Shown one piece after another: positions 1 to 6,917 of a stretch of DNA of 24,097 bases (positions are counted from its first letter, which is position 1; every line of letters starts with the position of its first letter). Location of the stretch: positions 1-24,097 of the IMG/VR virus record IMGVR_UViG_3300048694_000499; one strand, written 5' to 3'. A program made the translations under genes and the position numbers. This DNA is from a virus. The notes beneath the pieces are model-generated. The model saw only the letters and a program-made list of their open reading frames with translations. It had not been told where the DNA came from and did no database searches.

Positions 1-131
1 CTCTTATTATATGCTCGTTACATATATGTAGAGGAACAAATATATCCATCATTTTCTGTTCCCCAATGAGACCCTATATAAAATTTCTTTTTATAACTAT
101 CATACCAGAGGTAAACTATTCCATATTTCAT
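1..131 (-). pseudogene. GIY-YIG-type homing endonuclease, N-terminus with in-frame stop (runs off the window)
   Basis: An ATG at 131 is preceded by a strong AGGAG (142-138) with a 6-nt spacer, inside the 3' end of gp13 in a different frame. The reading frame gives MKYGIVYLWYD, then FYIGSHWGTENDGYICSS, which resembles the start of phage GIY-YIG endonucleases (GIY = GIVYLWY, YIG = FYIG). After codon 37 a TAA (20-18) interrupts the frame. The frame then continues as RAYNKR to the window edge, which is what I recall relatives having at this point. So the stop looks like a nonsense change in an otherwise preserved gene, for example AAA to TAA. It could also be a sequencing error. Only six codons past the stop are visible. 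Confidence 0.6.
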
Positions 132-930
132 TCAATACTCCTATTACGGTTAATAATCCAATAGAAGTATTTAGTATAAGCGGCGCAAATGCACCTATCA
201 TATCAGTTGCGGGAATTGAATAAGAATAGATCATTTCTCTTTCTAATGCTTCTCTTTCAGCTGTAGCATCGTTATATATTTTTTCACCATTAAATTTTAT
301 ACCACCAGGAAGTTGCATACCAGTAAACTTAGTTAAATTTGAACCCCACTGTTGTTTTATTAAACAAGAAGCATATCTAGCTAACCAACGATCACCCCAT
401 GCTTTGGTGTATGTTTCTGGATCTAATATTTGATAAGCTTCTACTATGACATAATCCCCAGGATTTACGATATCCCATTTCATATCAATATATAATTTAT
501 TATTATGTCTATTGTATCTTAAAGGTTGTTTACCAACCAAAATTTGTTCTAAAAATTGAATGTGTGTGAGAGCCATATAATAAGGAATCATCGATACAGA
601 AGTTAGAGTATATAAATCGTTTAATGCTATCTGATATCTGATATTGAACAAATTGTTGGTGTTTAGAGCTTGACCTATTTCAAAAATATTTACAGCACCA
701 ATTATATTTTCTGGTAATTGTATGTACTTGTTAGTAATATTTTCTTGTGTTAATAAATGTTTATAATAAATTTTTTCAGAACCATCAAAATGATAATCCC
801 AGAAATATTTAAGAGCTTCATCAATACGATCTTCAATTTGATCGTCGTCTGCATTAATTTCAATAACAGGTTTTCCTAGTTTACGCAGACAATATTCTTT
901 AAATTCAGCTCTAGTAGTAGGTACAGCCAT
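100..930 (-). CDS. gp13: T4-like gp13 neck protein (head completion)
   Basis: Head-completion/neck protein that, in T4, works with gp14 to close the filled capsid at the portal and form the tail docking site. The 276-residue product matches cyanophage-type gp13 along its length: the N-terminus MAVPTTRAEFKEYCLRKLG, the acidic ADDDQIEDRIDEAL segment, FWDYHFDGSEKIYYKH, LPENIIGAVNIFEIG, and the tract ending in TKFTGMQLPGGIKFNGEKIY. The start at 930 has GAGGA (941-937) six bases upstream, lying within a hairpin arm. Relatives as I remember them end around DMIG (here about residue 245). This copy continues for about 31 residues, the last ten overlapping the endonuclease start in another frame, so the C-terminus may have been altered by that insertion. 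Confidence 0.93.
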   Translation of the reverse strand: MAVPTTRAEFKEYCLRKLGKPVIEINADDDQIEDRIDEALKYFWDYHFDGSEKIYYKHLLTQENITNKYIQLPENIIGAVNIFEIGQALNTNNLFNIRYQIALNDLYTLTSVSMIPYYMALTHIQFLEQILVGKQPLRYNRHNNKLYIDMKWDIVNPGDYVIVEAYQILDPETYTKAWGDRWLARYASCLIKQQWGSNLTKFTGMQLPGGIKFNGEKIYNDATAEREALEREMIYSYSIPATDMIGAFAPLILNTSIGLLTVIGVLNEIWNSLPLV

Positions 931-1097: not shown

Positions 1098-1622
1098 TTA
1101 CTTTCCTTTCTTAACTTGAATTTGATTAGAAGGTAAATTTGAAGGTTGTGTTACTCTAATGTTATACATTTCGTTTAGTTTGATCATTGAACGACTACCA
1201 AACCAGAATGAAATAATACCAGCAAACACCGCCATTGTATTTTGATCCCAGACAGCATTAATAATATCGTTTGGATTATGTCCTTGTTTTAACATTACAT
1301 AAACAATGGCAATTTTGACTCCACAGAACATAAAGAAGAAACAGTATGTTATAACAGGGCGTATAGACGCTCTGAGTCCTTCAAGAAAACCAGTAGTATG
1401 AATAGCAGTATCATGTTGTCGTACAGAATTGGATTCTTCAGCATCTGCTTTAGCACTTTCGGCGATGGCAGTAAGTTCCAATCCCTTAGATGCTGCTTCC
1501 ATCTTGAGTTTAGTAAGTTCAATTTCATGTCTGTTATCCTGTTTCGTTTCCATTATCTTTACAAGATTTGGTAGCACAGCAGATGCTACACCAAACAGAG
1601 ACGATAATATTGTTAATAGCAT
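1098..1622 (-). CDS. Holin-like protein, GTA_holin_3TM type
   Basis: Probable inner-membrane holin-family protein. The 174 residues show a hydrophobic N-terminus (about 1-20), a charged helical stretch rich in Glu/Lys/Ala (25-70), a second span after LRASIRPVITY (about 88-110) and a third after WDQNTMAVFAGI (about 129-146) ending in FWFGSRSM. The RASIRPVITY and FAGIISFWFGSR motifs match the 3TM holins linked to gene-transfer-agent release. The start overlaps the upstream gene's stop (TAATG), with AAAGGTG as ribosome-binding site, implying coupled translation of two membrane proteins. No endolysin gene lies in this window, so a lysis role rests on family resemblance. Confidence 0.75.
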   Translation of the reverse strand: MLLTILSSLFGVASAVLPNLVKIMETKQDNRHEIELTKLKMEAASKGLELTAIAESAKADAEESNSVRQHDTAIHTTGFLEGLRASIRPVITYCFFFMFCGVKIAIVYVMLKQGHNPNDIINAVWDQNTMAVFAGIISFWFGSRSMIKLNEMYNIRVTQPSNLPSNQIQVKKGK

Positions 1623-1912
1623 TATTGCACCTTTTGTTCTGAATTATTGTTTTCTAGTGCTTGTTTCATCAAAGTTAATTTTTCTTGTGTTCTACCCCAT
1701 GCAGTAACACCTACTATTGTAAGCATTGCCATATGGTATAGACCACCACCTTTCAGCGTATATGGTGTCCAGTCTATTAGTTTATCAACGTTTTCTGATA
1801 TTGCTGAATAAAGAATAGGCAATCCGACAAAGTCAAATAGACAAACAAACAGATAAGACCATGCAATTGCTGGTCTCCACTTATTGATAAACCATGATTG
1901 ATATGTTTCCAT
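1622..1912 (-). CDS. Small holin-like membrane protein
   Basis: A 96-residue protein with two clear membrane segments: PAIAWSYLFVCLFDFVGLPI (about residues 14-38) and the stretch around GGGLYHMAMLTIVGVTAWGR. NKWRPAIAWSYL, LFDF and GGGLYHMAML resemble small holin-like proteins of marine phages. I choose the ATG at 1912 because AGGA (1922-1919) lies six bases upstream. The in-frame ATG at 1927 would add MLGRN but has no ribosome-binding site and would include the Shine-Dalgarno in its own codons. Its stop overlaps the next holin-like gene's start. A CATAAATA late element lies 38 bases upstream. Confidence 0.7.
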   Translation of the reverse strand: METYQSWFINKWRPAIAWSYLFVCLFDFVGLPILYSAISENVDKLIDWTPYTLKGGGLYHMAMLTIVGVTAWGRTQEKLTLMKQALENNNSEQKVQ

Positions 1913-1924
1913 GTTGCGTCCTAA

Positions 1925-1932
1925 CATAAATA
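1925..1932 (+). promoter_or_regulatory. Late-promoter-like CATAAATA, plus strand
   Basis: CATAAATA differs from the T4 late consensus by one base and lies 48 bases upstream of the chosen start (1980) of the oxygenase gene. It is the only promoter-like element in front of the plus-strand pair. It is mirrored by the same octamer on the other strand at 1957-1950. Confidence 0.45.
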
Positions 1933-1957: not shown

Positions 1958-1979
1958 TTTTTTAGTTATGGAGACTCTA

Positions 1980-2594
1980 ATGAGATATACAACGATTTAT
2001 AATGATCCTGTGAGAAGATCAACAGTAACAGAACCCTGGTGCTATTGGGATGGTGCTTTTACAGATGAAGAATTGGATAAAATTGTTGAGTATTGTGAAT
2101 CGCAAGAATTAAAGTCTGGTGTTACTTATGGTGGTAAAACACAGGAAGAAATAGAAAAAGTACGAATATCTAAAATTGGTTTTCATGCTAGATCACCAGA
2201 AACATCATGGATATTTGATAAAGTAAATTTTGTTCTGCAGAGTGCTAATGAGATGTTTTATGGTTTTGTGTTGAATGGATATACTTCTTTTCAATATACT
2301 ACATATGATGCTGAACAAAAAGGAAACTATGATTGGCACATGGATATGAATATAGGCAGTTCAACAGAAGAATTTGAACCCAGAAAGTTGTCTTTGACAA
2401 TGTTGCTTAATGATGATTTTGAAGGTGGTGAATTTCATCTAAATACAGGTAATCAATTAACACCTACTGTGCTGCCTGCTAAAAAAGGAAGAGCATTATT
2501 GTTTCCATCATTTATGTGTCATAGAGTAACACCTGTAACTAAAGGTAGAAGAAGATCGTTGGTAGTTTGGTGTTTGGGGCCTAAATTTACATGA
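1980..2594 (+). CDS. 2-oxoglutarate/Fe(II)-dependent oxygenase
   Basis: Non-haem iron dioxygenase expected to couple 2-oxoglutarate decarboxylation to substrate hydroxylation; the substrate is unknown. The double-stranded beta-helix signature is intact: HMD (His120, Asp122), distal His181 in PSFMCHRVTPV, and the 2OG-binding Arg191 in KGRRRSL; GGEF and ALLFPSF strands are also clear. The 204-residue length suits stand-alone phage prolyl-hydroxylase-like enzymes. I start at the ATG at 1980 because GGAG (1970-1973) is six bases upstream; an in-frame ATG at 1968 has no ribosome-binding site. It is the first gene of a two-gene plus-strand unit running against all neighbouring genes. The stop overlaps the next gene's GAGGA ribosome-binding site. 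Confidence 0.88.
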   Translation: MRYTTIYNDPVRRSTVTEPWCYWDGAFTDEELDKIVEYCESQELKSGVTYGGKTQEEIEKVRISKIGFHARSPETSWIFDKVNFVLQSANEMFYGFVLNGYTSFQYTTYDAEQKGNYDWHMDMNIGSSTEEFEPRKLSLTMLLNDDFEGGEFHLNTGNQLTPTVLPAKKGRALLFPSFMCHRVTPVTKGRRRSLVVWCLGPKFT

Positions 2595-2601
2595 GGAAAT
2601 T

Positions 2602-3534
2602 ATGAAAAGATTTTTTTTACTGTTTGCCTTGATGTTATATAGCAACGTTGCATTAGGAAAAACGTTAACTGTAATAGTTCCATCACATGAAGATGGACCA
2701 ACAGTAAATGCTCGTTTGTTTGTTCCATATCTGATAAAGAATTTACCAGAAATAACATCAGTAGAGTATAAAGTTGTTCCTGGTGCAGCAACAATAAACG
2801 CAGCAAATTATTTGTTTAATGTTGCTGAAAAAGATGGTTATACGATTGGTATTTTTAACCGCAACGTGCCTTTTATGGCGTATGCTGGTGATATAAACAT
2901 CAAGTTTGATCCAATAGAATTTACATGGTTAGGTTCTACAAACGATGGTAGAGTTGATCCTGTTTTATTGTTCTCTCACAAATCAATAGTGGAAAATTTA
3001 ATTATTGGAACAGATGCAATATCCATAGGAAATCCTGCAATTGTTGTCAATAGATTGGGCAATTTGAATTTTAAGATCATATCAGGATATAGAAATAATA
3101 CAGATATTCGTCTTGCTTTTCAAAGAAAAGAAATAGATGCGTTTTTCAATGCATTGACTGGAATGAAAACAACAGGACTGTCTATATTAAATGACACAAA
3201 CGTAAAAGTGCTGTTACAATTTGGCAATGGTAATATTAGACATTCAGAATACCGAAATGTGCCAACGTTATTAGAATTGTACCCAGATAGTTCTGTTAGA
3301 TATTTTGAATCTCAATCTTGGATACTAAGACCATTCGTTGCACCACCAAATATACCAGAAACGATGAAAACTCGTTTGAGAACTGCATTTGATAAAGCAG
3401 TCGTAGATAAACAATATGTTGAAGAAGCAAGAAAGATTGGTATAGATGTCAATCCAATCTTTCATAAAGAAATATATTTACTATTGAACTATATGAAAAG
3501 TGTTACTACTGAAATTATTCAAAAATTGAAATAA
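2602..3534 (+). CDS. Secreted TctC/Bug-type solute-binding protein (tripartite tricarboxylate transporter family)
   Basis: Resembles the periplasmic binding component of tripartite tricarboxylate transporters, which capture carboxylates for TctAB-type permeases. A signal peptide is obvious: MKRFFLLFALMLYSNVALG, with probable cleavage near residue 19. The mature part follows the Bug layout: TLTVIVPSHEDGPT (first strand and ligand loop), VVPGAATINAANYL (family PGAgG-like turn), EKDGYTIGIFN (family PDGYTL), a hinge region, and VAPPNIPETMKTRLRTAFDKAV near the C-terminus. The 310-residue length is normal for the family. GAGGA overlaps the preceding oxygenase stop, so the two are cotranslated. The 3' end overlaps the convergent PP-loop gene by 16 bases. 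The Gly-rich ligand loop is reduced (HEDGPT), so the ligand may differ. Confidence 0.75.
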   Translation: MKRFFLLFALMLYSNVALGKTLTVIVPSHEDGPTVNARLFVPYLIKNLPEITSVEYKVVPGAATINAANYLFNVAEKDGYTIGIFNRNVPFMAYAGDINIKFDPIEFTWLGSTNDGRVDPVLLFSHKSIVENLIIGTDAISIGNPAIVVNRLGNLNFKIISGYRNNTDIRLAFQRKEIDAFFNALTGMKTTGLSILNDTNVKVLLQFGNGNIRHSEYRNVPTLLELYPDSSVRYFESQSWILRPFVAPPNIPETMKTRLRTAFDKAVVDKQYVEEARKIGIDVNPIFHKEIYLLLNYMKSVTTEIIQKLK

Positions 3535-4547
3535 TATGGTCTTGAAAGATGAGGACGATATGAAAGACCTATTTCTTGATTTAGTTTTTTGATTCCGTCT
3601 GCGTATATACTAAAAATATCACTGTTCTGCTTTCTTTTCATATATTGATCACGAATACTCAAGTAACTGTTTGTAGATTTTCGTGTTGGAATAACAAGAG
3701 GACGTTGAACAGTTTTGTATATCAGTCTGTTAAAAATTCTATTATAATTATAGTTGAATGTTGCGTCGTTGTTCAACAATCTTTTGAAGTCTATTAGGGA
3801 CTCTGCTTGCTTTTTGATAATTTCCACACATGTTGGACTGTTTCCCCAGTAGAAATTTTCACGTGTTATATTTTCTTTTGAATATATGTTACCATAATCA
3901 ATCAATTCTATTTCAGAAAAATTAAAATAGTGTTTTGAGATTAGTGAATCGTAATTAACACTCGTTTTACCTGATCCAAATATAACACACGTTTTTTTGC
4001 TTCCACTATTGATGTGTTTATGGATATCTCTAAAAAAGATTTGAATCACGGATTTCCAATAACCAATATGCCTAAACCATTCGTTGCCGTAATCTGATAT
4101 CAATGAAAGTTGATTGATATCTTGAAACATTTCTGTATAATCAATTAACGACACTTTAGTATTGGGTAAACTTACTCTTTTTAACAAATCATCAACATTA
4201 ACGTAAATTTCTTTATTGTTGTTTTCATCAGACCCTTTGAAAGAGTCTTGAGAAAATGCACCAACACTAATTATTTGGTCTATTAACAAATCATTGTTAT
4301 AGAATGATTCAAACACATTTCTAGAATCTATTCCACCAGAAAGACACAACACAACATATTCGTATTTTTCACGCAGTTCTTCTGCTCTCATTCTGTATAA
4401 TTGTTCTAATGAAAAAATAGAACGAGTTTGCCAGTTTTGTTGCATAAAAAAATCATCATGATAATACAAATAACTGATATTACCACTTTTAATAGCATCT
4501 ATATGGTTAGTATAAATGTTGTTTTTGTTATCGTAATAGTGAATCAT
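3519..4547 (-). CDS. PP-loop ATPase, asparagine-synthase-like, without glutaminase domain
   Basis: N-type ATP pyrophosphatase: members adenylate a substrate with ATP and release pyrophosphate before amidation or thiolation. The PP-loop SGGIDS is at residues 70-75, after strand YVVLCL. The Asn-synthase-type continuation SRNVFESF supports the family. There is no N-terminal Cys-nucleophile glutaminase domain, so it is not a full AsnB, and an ammonia or other donor would be needed. A second conserved-looking patch, VIFGSGKTSVNY, falls near residue 190. Translation probably depends on the upstream gene: the start shares ATGA with its stop and no ribosome-binding site is visible. Related proteins occur in T4-like phages, but the substrate is unknown to me. 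Confidence 0.72.
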   Translation of the reverse strand: MIHYYDNKNNIYTNHIDAIKSGNISYLYYHDDFFMQQNWQTRSIFSLEQLYRMRAEELREKYEYVVLCLSGGIDSRNVFESFYNNDLLIDQIISVGAFSQDSFKGSDENNNKEIYVNVDDLLKRVSLPNTKVSLIDYTEMFQDINQLSLISDYGNEWFRHIGYWKSVIQIFFRDIHKHINSGSKKTCVIFGSGKTSVNYDSLISKHYFNFSEIELIDYGNIYSKENITRENFYWGNSPTCVEIIKKQAESLIDFKRLLNNDATFNYNYNRIFNRLIYKTVQRPLVIPTRKSTNSYLSIRDQYMKRKQNSDIFSIYADGIKKLNQEIGLSYRPHLSRPYYFNF

Positions 4548-4969: not shown

Positions 4970-5632
4970 TTACCCTGTTATTGTTCCTGTGTTTATCCAT
5001 CTGATGTTTGAATTTCCTGATACTGCTGTTCCTCTTGTACCCGATGGACCCGTAGATCCTGGTGGTCCTGGTGGTCCAGAAGATCCACAAAGACCACCAG
5101 GACCACCAGGATTTCCACCATAAACAGTACCACCAGCAACCCCCGCCGACCCTAAATTGCCACCAGGACCACCTATAATTGATGATCCAGCATTGTCTAT
5201 TTGAGTTATTAGACCAGTAATGGTTGCAACGCTCAAAGATATTCCGCCAGAATTTCCTGTACCTCCGGTACCACCTGTTCCTCCAGTATTTCCTGGTGAC
5301 CCACCTCCACCAGGACCACCAGGACCACCAGCACCACCAGCACCACCAGCGCCATTTGTGCCTGTTGTTCCTGTGCTTCCGGTTGAACCTGGACTTCCTG
5401 TACCACCTGTTATTGTTGCATTATTGTCAATATACAACAAAGACCCACCAATCCAACCAGTTCCTGTTTGAAATGCAGGAGTTGCTGACGATGAAGACCC
5501 AACATTTGCATTTATGAAACACAACAAATTCAACGGAAACGTTGGAGAACCTGCAGTTGTATACAAGTTAACGTTGTTTGTCGTAGCAGAAATATTAACA
5601 ATTTGTGTTGGTCTTGGTAACATTAAAAACAT
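4970..5632 (-). CDS. Glycine-rich, collagen-like tail adhesin
   Basis: Likely receptor-binding tip protein. The N-terminal third (about 1-70) is a non-repetitive beta domain. From about residue 75 it becomes a glycine-rich array: GSTGSTGTTGTNG, GGAGGAGGPGGPGGGG, GGTGGTGGTGNSGG, then after a short linker GGNPGGPGG and GPPGPPGSTGPSG. Both Gly-X-Y triplets (collagen-like) and runs like those of polyglycine-II sandwich adhesins (the T4-like gp38 type) are present, so either fold is possible. The C-terminus SNIRWINTGTITG matches the beta-strand closing motif of phage Gly-rich fibres. The start overlaps the previous stop (TAATG), with GGATG upstream. The glycine tract is GC-richer than its surroundings. 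Confidence 0.75.
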   Translation of the reverse strand: MFLMLPRPTQIVNISATTNNVNLYTTAGSPTFPLNLLCFINANVGSSSSATPAFQTGTGWIGGSLLYIDNNATITGGTGSPGSTGSTGTTGTNGAGGAGGAGGPGGPGGGGSPGNTGGTGGTGGTGNSGGISLSVATITGLITQIDNAGSSIIGGPGGNLGSAGVAGGTVYGGNPGGPGGLCGSSGPPGPPGSTGPSGTRGTAVSGNSNIRWINTGTITG

Positions 5633-6123
5633 TATTTTACATCCGGTAGAAATGAACCATACATATTTGTTCCATCAGAATAAAAGAATATAATATCTCT
5701 GGCATTGGCAGTAGTTGTTAAAGTGGGTTTGACACCACCAGGAAACTTAAATACGGTGTTTGAGAAGTCTCCCGTTCTACTACCAGTTCCATCTTGAATA
5801 ACATTCAGTACGTAAGTACCAATTTTCAAATTTGTTGGTCCAAGAAAAGTTCTATTACCACCAAGAGTAACGGTTGCTATTTGACCTGATGCAGTATTCC
5901 ATGATATCGTAGCACCATCTGTTAAAGTTTGGGATGCTACGTTTGCTGTTGCTATTGAAAATGAATTGGTAAGTGCTAGAGTTGAAACAGACAGAGCAGT
6001 AGAATTGACTGTTGCTGCAGTAACACCACCAGCAATAAAACTAAATGTGTTAGAACTGCCTAATTGAATTCTATTGTTTGCTGTTGACTCAAAATGAATA
6101 TTACTACATTGAAGGACACTCAT
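5632..6123 (-). CDS. Tail-fibre-like virion protein (163 aa)
   Basis: Short modular fibre. Residues 1-48 (CSNIHFESTANNRIQLG, SSNTFSFIAGG, ATVNSTALSVS) match the whole 67-residue gene at 12256-12459. Residues from about 65 to the end (LTDGATISW, GGNRTFLGPTNL, VFKFPGGVKPTLTTTANARD) match the C-terminal half of the fibre at 9897-10589. So it combines two modules found elsewhere in this region. The start at 6123 overlaps the homing endonuclease stop by ATGA. The ribosome-binding site AAAGGAAAG lies inside the last codons of the endonuclease, meaning the inserted gene now supplies its initiation signal. The role in the particle is inferred from composition and position. Confidence 0.75.
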   Translation of the reverse strand: MSVLQCSNIHFESTANNRIQLGSSNTFSFIAGGVTAATVNSTALSVSTLALTNSFSIATANVASQTLTDGATISWNTASGQIATVTLGGNRTFLGPTNLKIGTYVLNVIQDGTGSRTGDFSNTVFKFPGGVKPTLTTTANARDIIFFYSDGTNMYGSFLPDVK

Positions 6124-6917
6124 GGTTTACTTTCCTTTTTTCTTTTACCTGTTATGCCTCTACCACGAATCCAACCACTTGGTTGTTGGTTCTCGTAAAC
6201 AAACACAGTTTTTGTTATATCTGAAGGGTCATGATACCAAACTTTTCCTTTTTTAGATATATTCAACCCCTGTATCCAATTTTGTGGTTGTTGTCCTTTA
6301 CAATACATTCCTCGATCATTTGTTTTTGGATCATGATACCATTTATAAATGCCCCTTGTTTTTTTAGGACCAGTTTGTATTCCTTTGTTCCATACTCCGT
6401 GTTTTTCTACATGTCTTTTCATAGAGTTGGATATATTATTTTTGTGTTCCTCTGATATTTTGTAATCACCTTTAAGACCTTTATTCCAAGGTATATTTCC
6501 TTTTTTTACTCCACCGATGCCAGGAGTTTTTATACCTTTTCTTTTACTAGGTTTACCAATTCTCATTATACTCAAACGTTTTTTTGTTTCTTCTGAATGT
6601 TTATTTCCTGTGTTATCATAATGATGCCCAATTGCTTTATTAATATACATTTCATTTTTTATTACATTCAAAGATTTTTGCAATTTAATTTCTTTTTGCT
6701 TTGCTTCTTCTTTGCTATTATGTAACGAAATTATTTTAGTGTTAAACATTTCAGGATTTTGTTTTAATTCTAATAACCATGTTTCCTTGTACTTCTTTGA
6801 TGCTACAGAACCTCTGTATCCCTTTTGAATGTTTTTAACAGTCGTATACCCTATATAAAAAGGAGGTAATTTATTACCTTTATATGTTGTCAAATAAGTG
6901 CAATAATTGCTATTCAT
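6120..6917 (-). CDS. GIY-YIG homing endonuclease with NUMOD3 motifs
   Basis: Selfish DNA endonuclease of the T4 Seg type, expected to cut a related phage genome and copy itself in. Catalytic GIY-YIG domain: YCTYLTTY (5-12) and FYIGYT (20-25), the conserved Arg in YRGS (35), Glu candidates at 70-77 and Asn93. NUMOD3 DNA-binding motifs follow: NTGNKHSEETKKRLS (about 102-116) and IPWNKGLKGDYKISEEH (142-158). The C-terminus has a tandem repeat of WYHDP...QQPxxWIxG (193-217 and 227-251), probably further DNA contacts. It is free-standing between two fibre genes and is not in an intron. There is no good ribosome-binding site at 6917; the start overlaps a 9-codon mini-ORF stop by ATGA. Confidence 0.85.
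   Translation of the reverse strand: MNSNYCTYLTTYKGNKLPPFYIGYTTVKNIQKGYRGSVASKKYKETWLLELKQNPEMFNTKIISLHNSKEEAKQKEIKLQKSLNVIKNEMYINKAIGHHYDNTGNKHSEETKKRLSIMRIGKPSKRKGIKTPGIGGVKKGNIPWNKGLKGDYKISEEHKNNISNSMKRHVEKHGVWNKGIQTGPKKTRGIYKWYHDPKTNDRGMYCKGQQPQNWIQGLNISKKGKVWYHDPSDITKTVFVYENQQPSGWIRGRGITGKRKKESKP

Follow-up and report, generated by a model that had tools for sequence, protein, structure and literature searches.

The window analysed here is the whole 24,097-base contig of IMG/VR virus record IMGVR_UViG_3300048694_000499, which carries T4-like structural genes and a single convincing plus-strand operon. This operon pairs a 2-oxoglutarate (2OG)-Fe(II) oxygenase gene with an open reading frame (ORF; 2602-3534, plus strand) of 310 amino acids. 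A sequence-only reading had taken its product for a secreted, phage-borne protein of TctC/Bug type, i.e. the binding-protein family of the tripartite tricarboxylate transporters (TTT), encoded in the structural region and tied to the oxygenase. The motifs quoted in that reading are present in the ORF. The oxygenase ends 7 bases before the ATG of the binding-protein gene, whose GAGG ribosome site overlaps the TGA stop of the oxygenase, and the two genes are probably co-transcribed. The phage structural setting was borne out by the neighbours, which include a neck-type protein (phrog_211), holin-like, tail-fibre-like and collagen-like ORFs and a 2108-amino-acid phrog_358 protein.

The window protein begins with the export signal expected of TTT solute-binding proteins, a signal peptide with n-h-c layout and predicted cleavage between MKRFFLLFALMLYSNVALG and K, and lacks a lipobox. 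A signal peptide was likewise found in all 27 phage copies examined, none of which has a lipobox, and the product is predicted to be secreted by Sec export to the host periplasm. The Pfam TctC model (PF03401), proposed in the sequence-only reading as a check, matched only the C-terminal part weakly (E 4e-4, 20.4 bits). The curated cut-off of 27 bits is missed by the window protein and by every copy in the main phage branch; the phage copy L107 and a second phage subfamily lie above it, and the Pfam model under-detects the phage branch. PHROGs and NCBIfam hold no family for the window protein, phmmer with the single protein gave no match in the PDB, and a three-sequence profile gave chance matches only. 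A profile from a 108-row alignment, searched against the whole PDB, returned TTT binding proteins and no other family (E 1e-23 to 1e-13).

Structure prediction gave the two-lobed fold that the same reading had anticipated. The AlphaFold model from the 108-sequence alignment (predicted local distance difference test, pLDDT, 94.6; predicted template-modelling score, pTM, 0.89), which superseded a five-sequence model with pLDDT 52, has the two-lobed architecture common to BugD, Bug27, TphC and MatC. VIA-align placed 11 TTT entries on top (Z 21.0-23.5), with the next family at 14.4. The solved proteins Bug27 (2QPQ), BugD (2F5X), TphC (7NDR/7NDS), MatC (6HKE) and Rpa4515 (5OEI) resemble the phage model over ~270 residues (Z 21-23.5), although they are only 15-20% identical to the phage protein and differ from it in their ligand loops. 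Because the modelled fold and the 108-row profile both point to TTT proteins, we regard membership in the TTT/Bug family as firm despite the missed Pfam cut-off. The PFxAGGxxD loop of the family is missing, and the assignment therefore rests on fold and profile.

Successive rounds of viral scans in IMG/VR raised the number of further contigs that encode the binding protein from 2 to 4 and finally to 28 (29 with the window), most copies being 33-47% identical. A genome scan returned 116 bacterial relatives (80 kept; 25-33% identity), nearly all alphaproteobacterial and mostly from Hyphomicrobiales, in a sample biased by scan patterns that were derived from the phage proteins. Maximum-likelihood phylogeny united 26 of the 27 phage copies in one group (Shimodaira-Hasegawa-like approximate likelihood ratio test, SH-aLRT, 93) adjoining a small Hyphomicrobiales group. 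L107 was placed apart from the other phage copies, with a metagenome-assembled genome labelled Devosia. Two separate phage acquisitions were thereby hinted at, but an approximately unbiased (AU) test does not reject a single clade (p 0.15). We take the group for a branch confined to phages that descends from TTT binding proteins of alphaproteobacterial type. The ratio of nonsynonymous to synonymous substitution rates (dN/dS) was 0.06-0.14 in the five pairs with dS under 1, values that indicate purifying selection on the gene in phages.

Hyphomicrobiales/Rhizobiales TTT binding proteins (L006, L007; expansions as in Rhodoplanes sp. Z2-YC6860, PMC5994714) share with the phage copies a near full-length homology at 25-33% identity, the signal peptide and the motifs PGAGxxxAANYLYNVAPKDG, WLGS, GYxxxxxxLAxERxEVD and RPFxAPPxxP. 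Unlike them, the phage copies are shorter, have lost the GG...D loop (T4-like branch), have gained DGR, NG..R and E236, and lie on phage contigs without TctA. A tblastn search with three branch members (window, L089, L104) against 50,697 GenBank phage records gave no match, and neither the branch nor its properties were found in the literature searched. In BFVD, a few phage proteins carry the annotation PBP2_Bug_TTT or Bordetella uptake protein. Three of them (A0A6J5T247, A0A6J5L7K0 and A0A6J5M1T7, from uncultured Caudovirales phage) are likewise phage-encoded and Bug-type, but the BFVD proteins belong to another subfamily, 14-16% identical to the window protein, and no functional report on them was found in the literature searched. 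Phage-borne Bug proteins as a kind are thus already in databases, whereas the branch described here is undescribed.

A second, very divergent subfamily of secreted phage TctC proteins occurs in seven contigs (L086, L087, L089, L093, L094, L096, L109), near the first subfamily in the same phages (e.g. L093:13639-14544 and L087:8897-9796, both on the minus strand) and in two copies each in L089 and L093. The two copies scanned, from L093 and L087, reach 38.8-42.4 bits with PF03401, above its cut-off. A tblastn search with the L093 protein against GenBank phages gave one match, on a 691-kb contig labelled Salmonella.

In solved TTT members the PFxAGGxxD loop, which is highly conserved in the family, holds a ligand carboxylate (PMC8556258). 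Its equivalent in the window protein is SHEDGPTVN, which departs from the canonical motif. While bacterial relatives keep G30 (99%), G31 (84%) and D34 (90%), these positions are no longer conserved in T4-like phage copies and the Gly-Gly is gone. The reduced Gly-rich ligand loop noted from the sequence is therefore real, and it is common to the T4-like branch; SGG is kept in the phage copies L098, L100, L102, L104, L106 and L108. Gained in phages were N36, D115-G116-R117, N209-G210, R213 and E236, each conserved in at least 90% of T4-like copies. From the alignment, the ligand site appears to have been rebuilt in this branch, and because new conserved residues occur together with low dN/dS, the altered site looks like changed function rather than decay.

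Table 1 Features of the binding-protein locus in the window.
Feature	Position	Strand	Basis
T4 gp13-type neck / head-tail adaptor protein; locus anchor in relatives	100-930	-	phrog_211, E 7e-42
Two holin-like ORFs (1098-1622, 1622-1927), divergent from the operon	1098-1927	-	library scans
CATAAATA, T4-late-promoter-like box, 35 bases before the oxygenase ATG	1925-1932	+	motif scan
2OG-Fe(II) oxygenase, same operon; apparently exchanged recently with an L002-type phage	1968-2594	+	PF13640, E 1e-14; DNA comparison
Phage TctC/Bug-type (TTT) periplasmic binding protein, 310 amino acids	2602-3534	+	Pfam, AlphaFold model, structure and profile comparison
Signal peptide, residues 1-19; predicted cleavage between ALG and K	2602-2658	+	n/h/c check, without lipobox
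Loop 1, residues 25-36 (IVPSHEDGPTVN), counterpart of the PFxAGGxxD ligand loop; Gly-Gly and Asp lost	2674-2709	+	alignment; motif from PMC8556258
D115-G116-R117; D and R invariant in 25 phage copies, G >90%; unconserved in bacterial relatives	2944-2952	+	alignment
Convergent gene with SGGxDS (PP-loop-like) motif; homologues near the binding protein in relatives	3519-4547	-	ORF list, relatives' loci

Across the relatives, a T4 neck-type gene is present in 21 of the 29 contigs, usually within 6 kb of the binding-protein gene and often directly adjoining it, and in most of these contigs the binding-protein gene is oriented against the structural genes. L100, L102, L103, L104, L105 and L108 represent another phage type, in which the gene lies between a QueC-like PP-loop gene and tail/structural genes. 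The partnership with the oxygenase proved looser than the sequence-only reading had supposed. Adjacency and probable co-transcription hold in the window, but oxygenase genes (of two families) lie within 6 kb in only 15 of the 29 contigs, in varying order. Moreover, the window oxygenase is 95.4% identical in nucleotide sequence to L002:7364-7990, with identity dropping just outside the gene ends, compared with 62.3% for the binding-protein genes of the same two phages; because of this difference, the oxygenase looks like a recent single-gene exchange, independent of the binding protein. A fixed unit of the two genes was therefore rejected.

Close to the oxygenase, a Gly-rich collagen-like ORF (4970-5632, minus strand) has similar counterparts in L002 and L003; hydroxylation of phage fibre repeats would be a speculative possibility. 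A homing-endonuclease-like ORF (NUMOD3, phrog_314/10820; 6120-6917, minus strand) lies between tail-fibre-type genes. In relatives, the binding-protein gene is accompanied by PP-loop-like genes (L004:5848-13460; L097:5038-5844; L088:10755-11201 for this variable spot as a whole), Rieske and radical-SAM-like genes, an amidoligase (Amidoligase_2) and a fatty-acid hydroxylase (FA_hydroxylase). The presence of these genes in one and the same variable spot suggests a small-molecule or peptide tailoring cassette.

Upstream of the operon, the box at 1925-1932 is the only YATAAATA on the plus strand of the window and conforms to a late-promoter consensus of the TATAAATA type. A second CATAAATA box within 1925-1957 faces in the opposite direction, toward the holin-like ORFs, so that the two form a divergent pair. 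Box matches of 7-8 out of 8 positions precede the operon in 10 of 16 T4-like loci, a frequency reached by 0 of 2000 dinucleotide shuffles, and late expression of the operon is likely on the basis of these motifs.

Most of what is known of periplasmic binding proteins encoded by phages concerns phosphate. Cyanophage PstS is likewise such a protein, but of a different family, and no regulation is known for the window gene. The family call and the loop remark of the sequence-only reading are borne out, whereas its further proposal, carboxylate binding and a change in the carbon uptake of the host, stays conjectural. We give an even chance to the reading that the window protein binds a ligand in the periplasm and acts via membrane partners of the host, either in uptake or in sensing. 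On this view the protein, a genuine solute-binding member of the TTT (Bug/TctC) family, would be made at a late stage of infection under a T4-type late promoter that also serves the 2OG oxygenase, and exported by Sec to the host periplasm. There, its cleft would still close around a small ligand, at the rebuilt site, and an existing host TTT/TRAP-like permease or sensor would act as partner, so that host uptake or sensing would be changed during virion assembly, presumably to the benefit of the phage. The use of host partners is plausible because bacteria of this type may encode TTT binding proteins in very large numbers, close to the membrane components of several transporter families and to histidine kinases (PMC5994714), and a TctA-type membrane component may come from the host. 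Several points weigh against this reading. The T4-like branch has lost the loop by which solved members anchor one ligand carboxylate, the data do not allow a ligand to be named, and the AlphaFold model drew on an alignment in which bacterial TTT proteins abound. The 29 contigs, which together span 0.94 Mb and may be fragments, contain no TctA permease. As for timing, the late boxes are consensus matches whose window-wide count is not above chance (7 vs 5.8), and kinship of the sequences inflates the shuffle test. Literature mentions of two kinds were set aside: tctA in SUP05 viral contigs (PMC4164917, PMC6359870) concerns the permease domain, not the binding protein, and a tctC match in PMC8290583 is only a primer sequence.

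The main competitor, which we consider possible yet clearly less probable, is that the binding-protein fold has been reused without transport, as a late periplasmic envelope effector or sensor that would touch a holin or receptor and so tune lysis timing or block superinfection, perhaps under ligand control; T4 RI offers a comparison for such periplasmic control. The late-promoter-like boxes, the divergent holin-like ORFs, the lost canonical loop with its new conserved residues and the missing TctA would all fit, as would L100, where the gene is followed at 1.3 kb by one for an endolysin (phrog_315), next to a gene for a small membrane protein resembling a 3TM holin (phrog_1544). However, most T4-like relatives have the gene directly against the neck gene, without an intervening holin, and the cleft fold is retained along with many core positions. 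A bolder version, to which we attach a rather low probability, is that phages have converted a nutrient-binding protein of bacteria into a late periplasmic sensor/effector whose rebuilt site would report a small molecule in the periplasm to the lysis/superinfection machinery or to host sensors, rather than supply a permease.

Weaker than both the host-partner reading and the envelope effector, and in our view unlikely, is a classical auxiliary metabolic gene whose product would bind di- or tricarboxylates and feed host TctAB, for more carbon and possibly 2-oxoglutarate for the oxygenase. Carboxylates make up most of the TTT ligands characterised to date (PMC8556258), and an oxygenase gene lies nearby in about half of the contigs. 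Yet the Gly-Gly loop that hydrogen-bonds the ligand carboxylate is lost, no oxygenase was seen nearby in the other half, the window oxygenase was apparently exchanged separately, and 2-oxoglutarate is made in the cytoplasm, leaving no obvious need for import. Finally, loss of the canonical loop motif in most phage copies could also reflect a captured host gene that is functionless or decaying, or a host-contaminated contig; this is very improbable, as it is contradicted by the low dN/dS, by the presence of the gene on 29 viral contigs, most of which show viral neighbours, and by undamaged reading frames and signal peptides throughout the copies examined.

The gene represents an undescribed, selected and widespread TTT branch in T4-like phages and at least one other phage kind. 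Surveys of auxiliary genes would overlook it because the Pfam cut-off misses it and no GenBank phage searched carries it. The altered site and the probable late timing would make a late periplasmic phage activity testable with one soluble protein.
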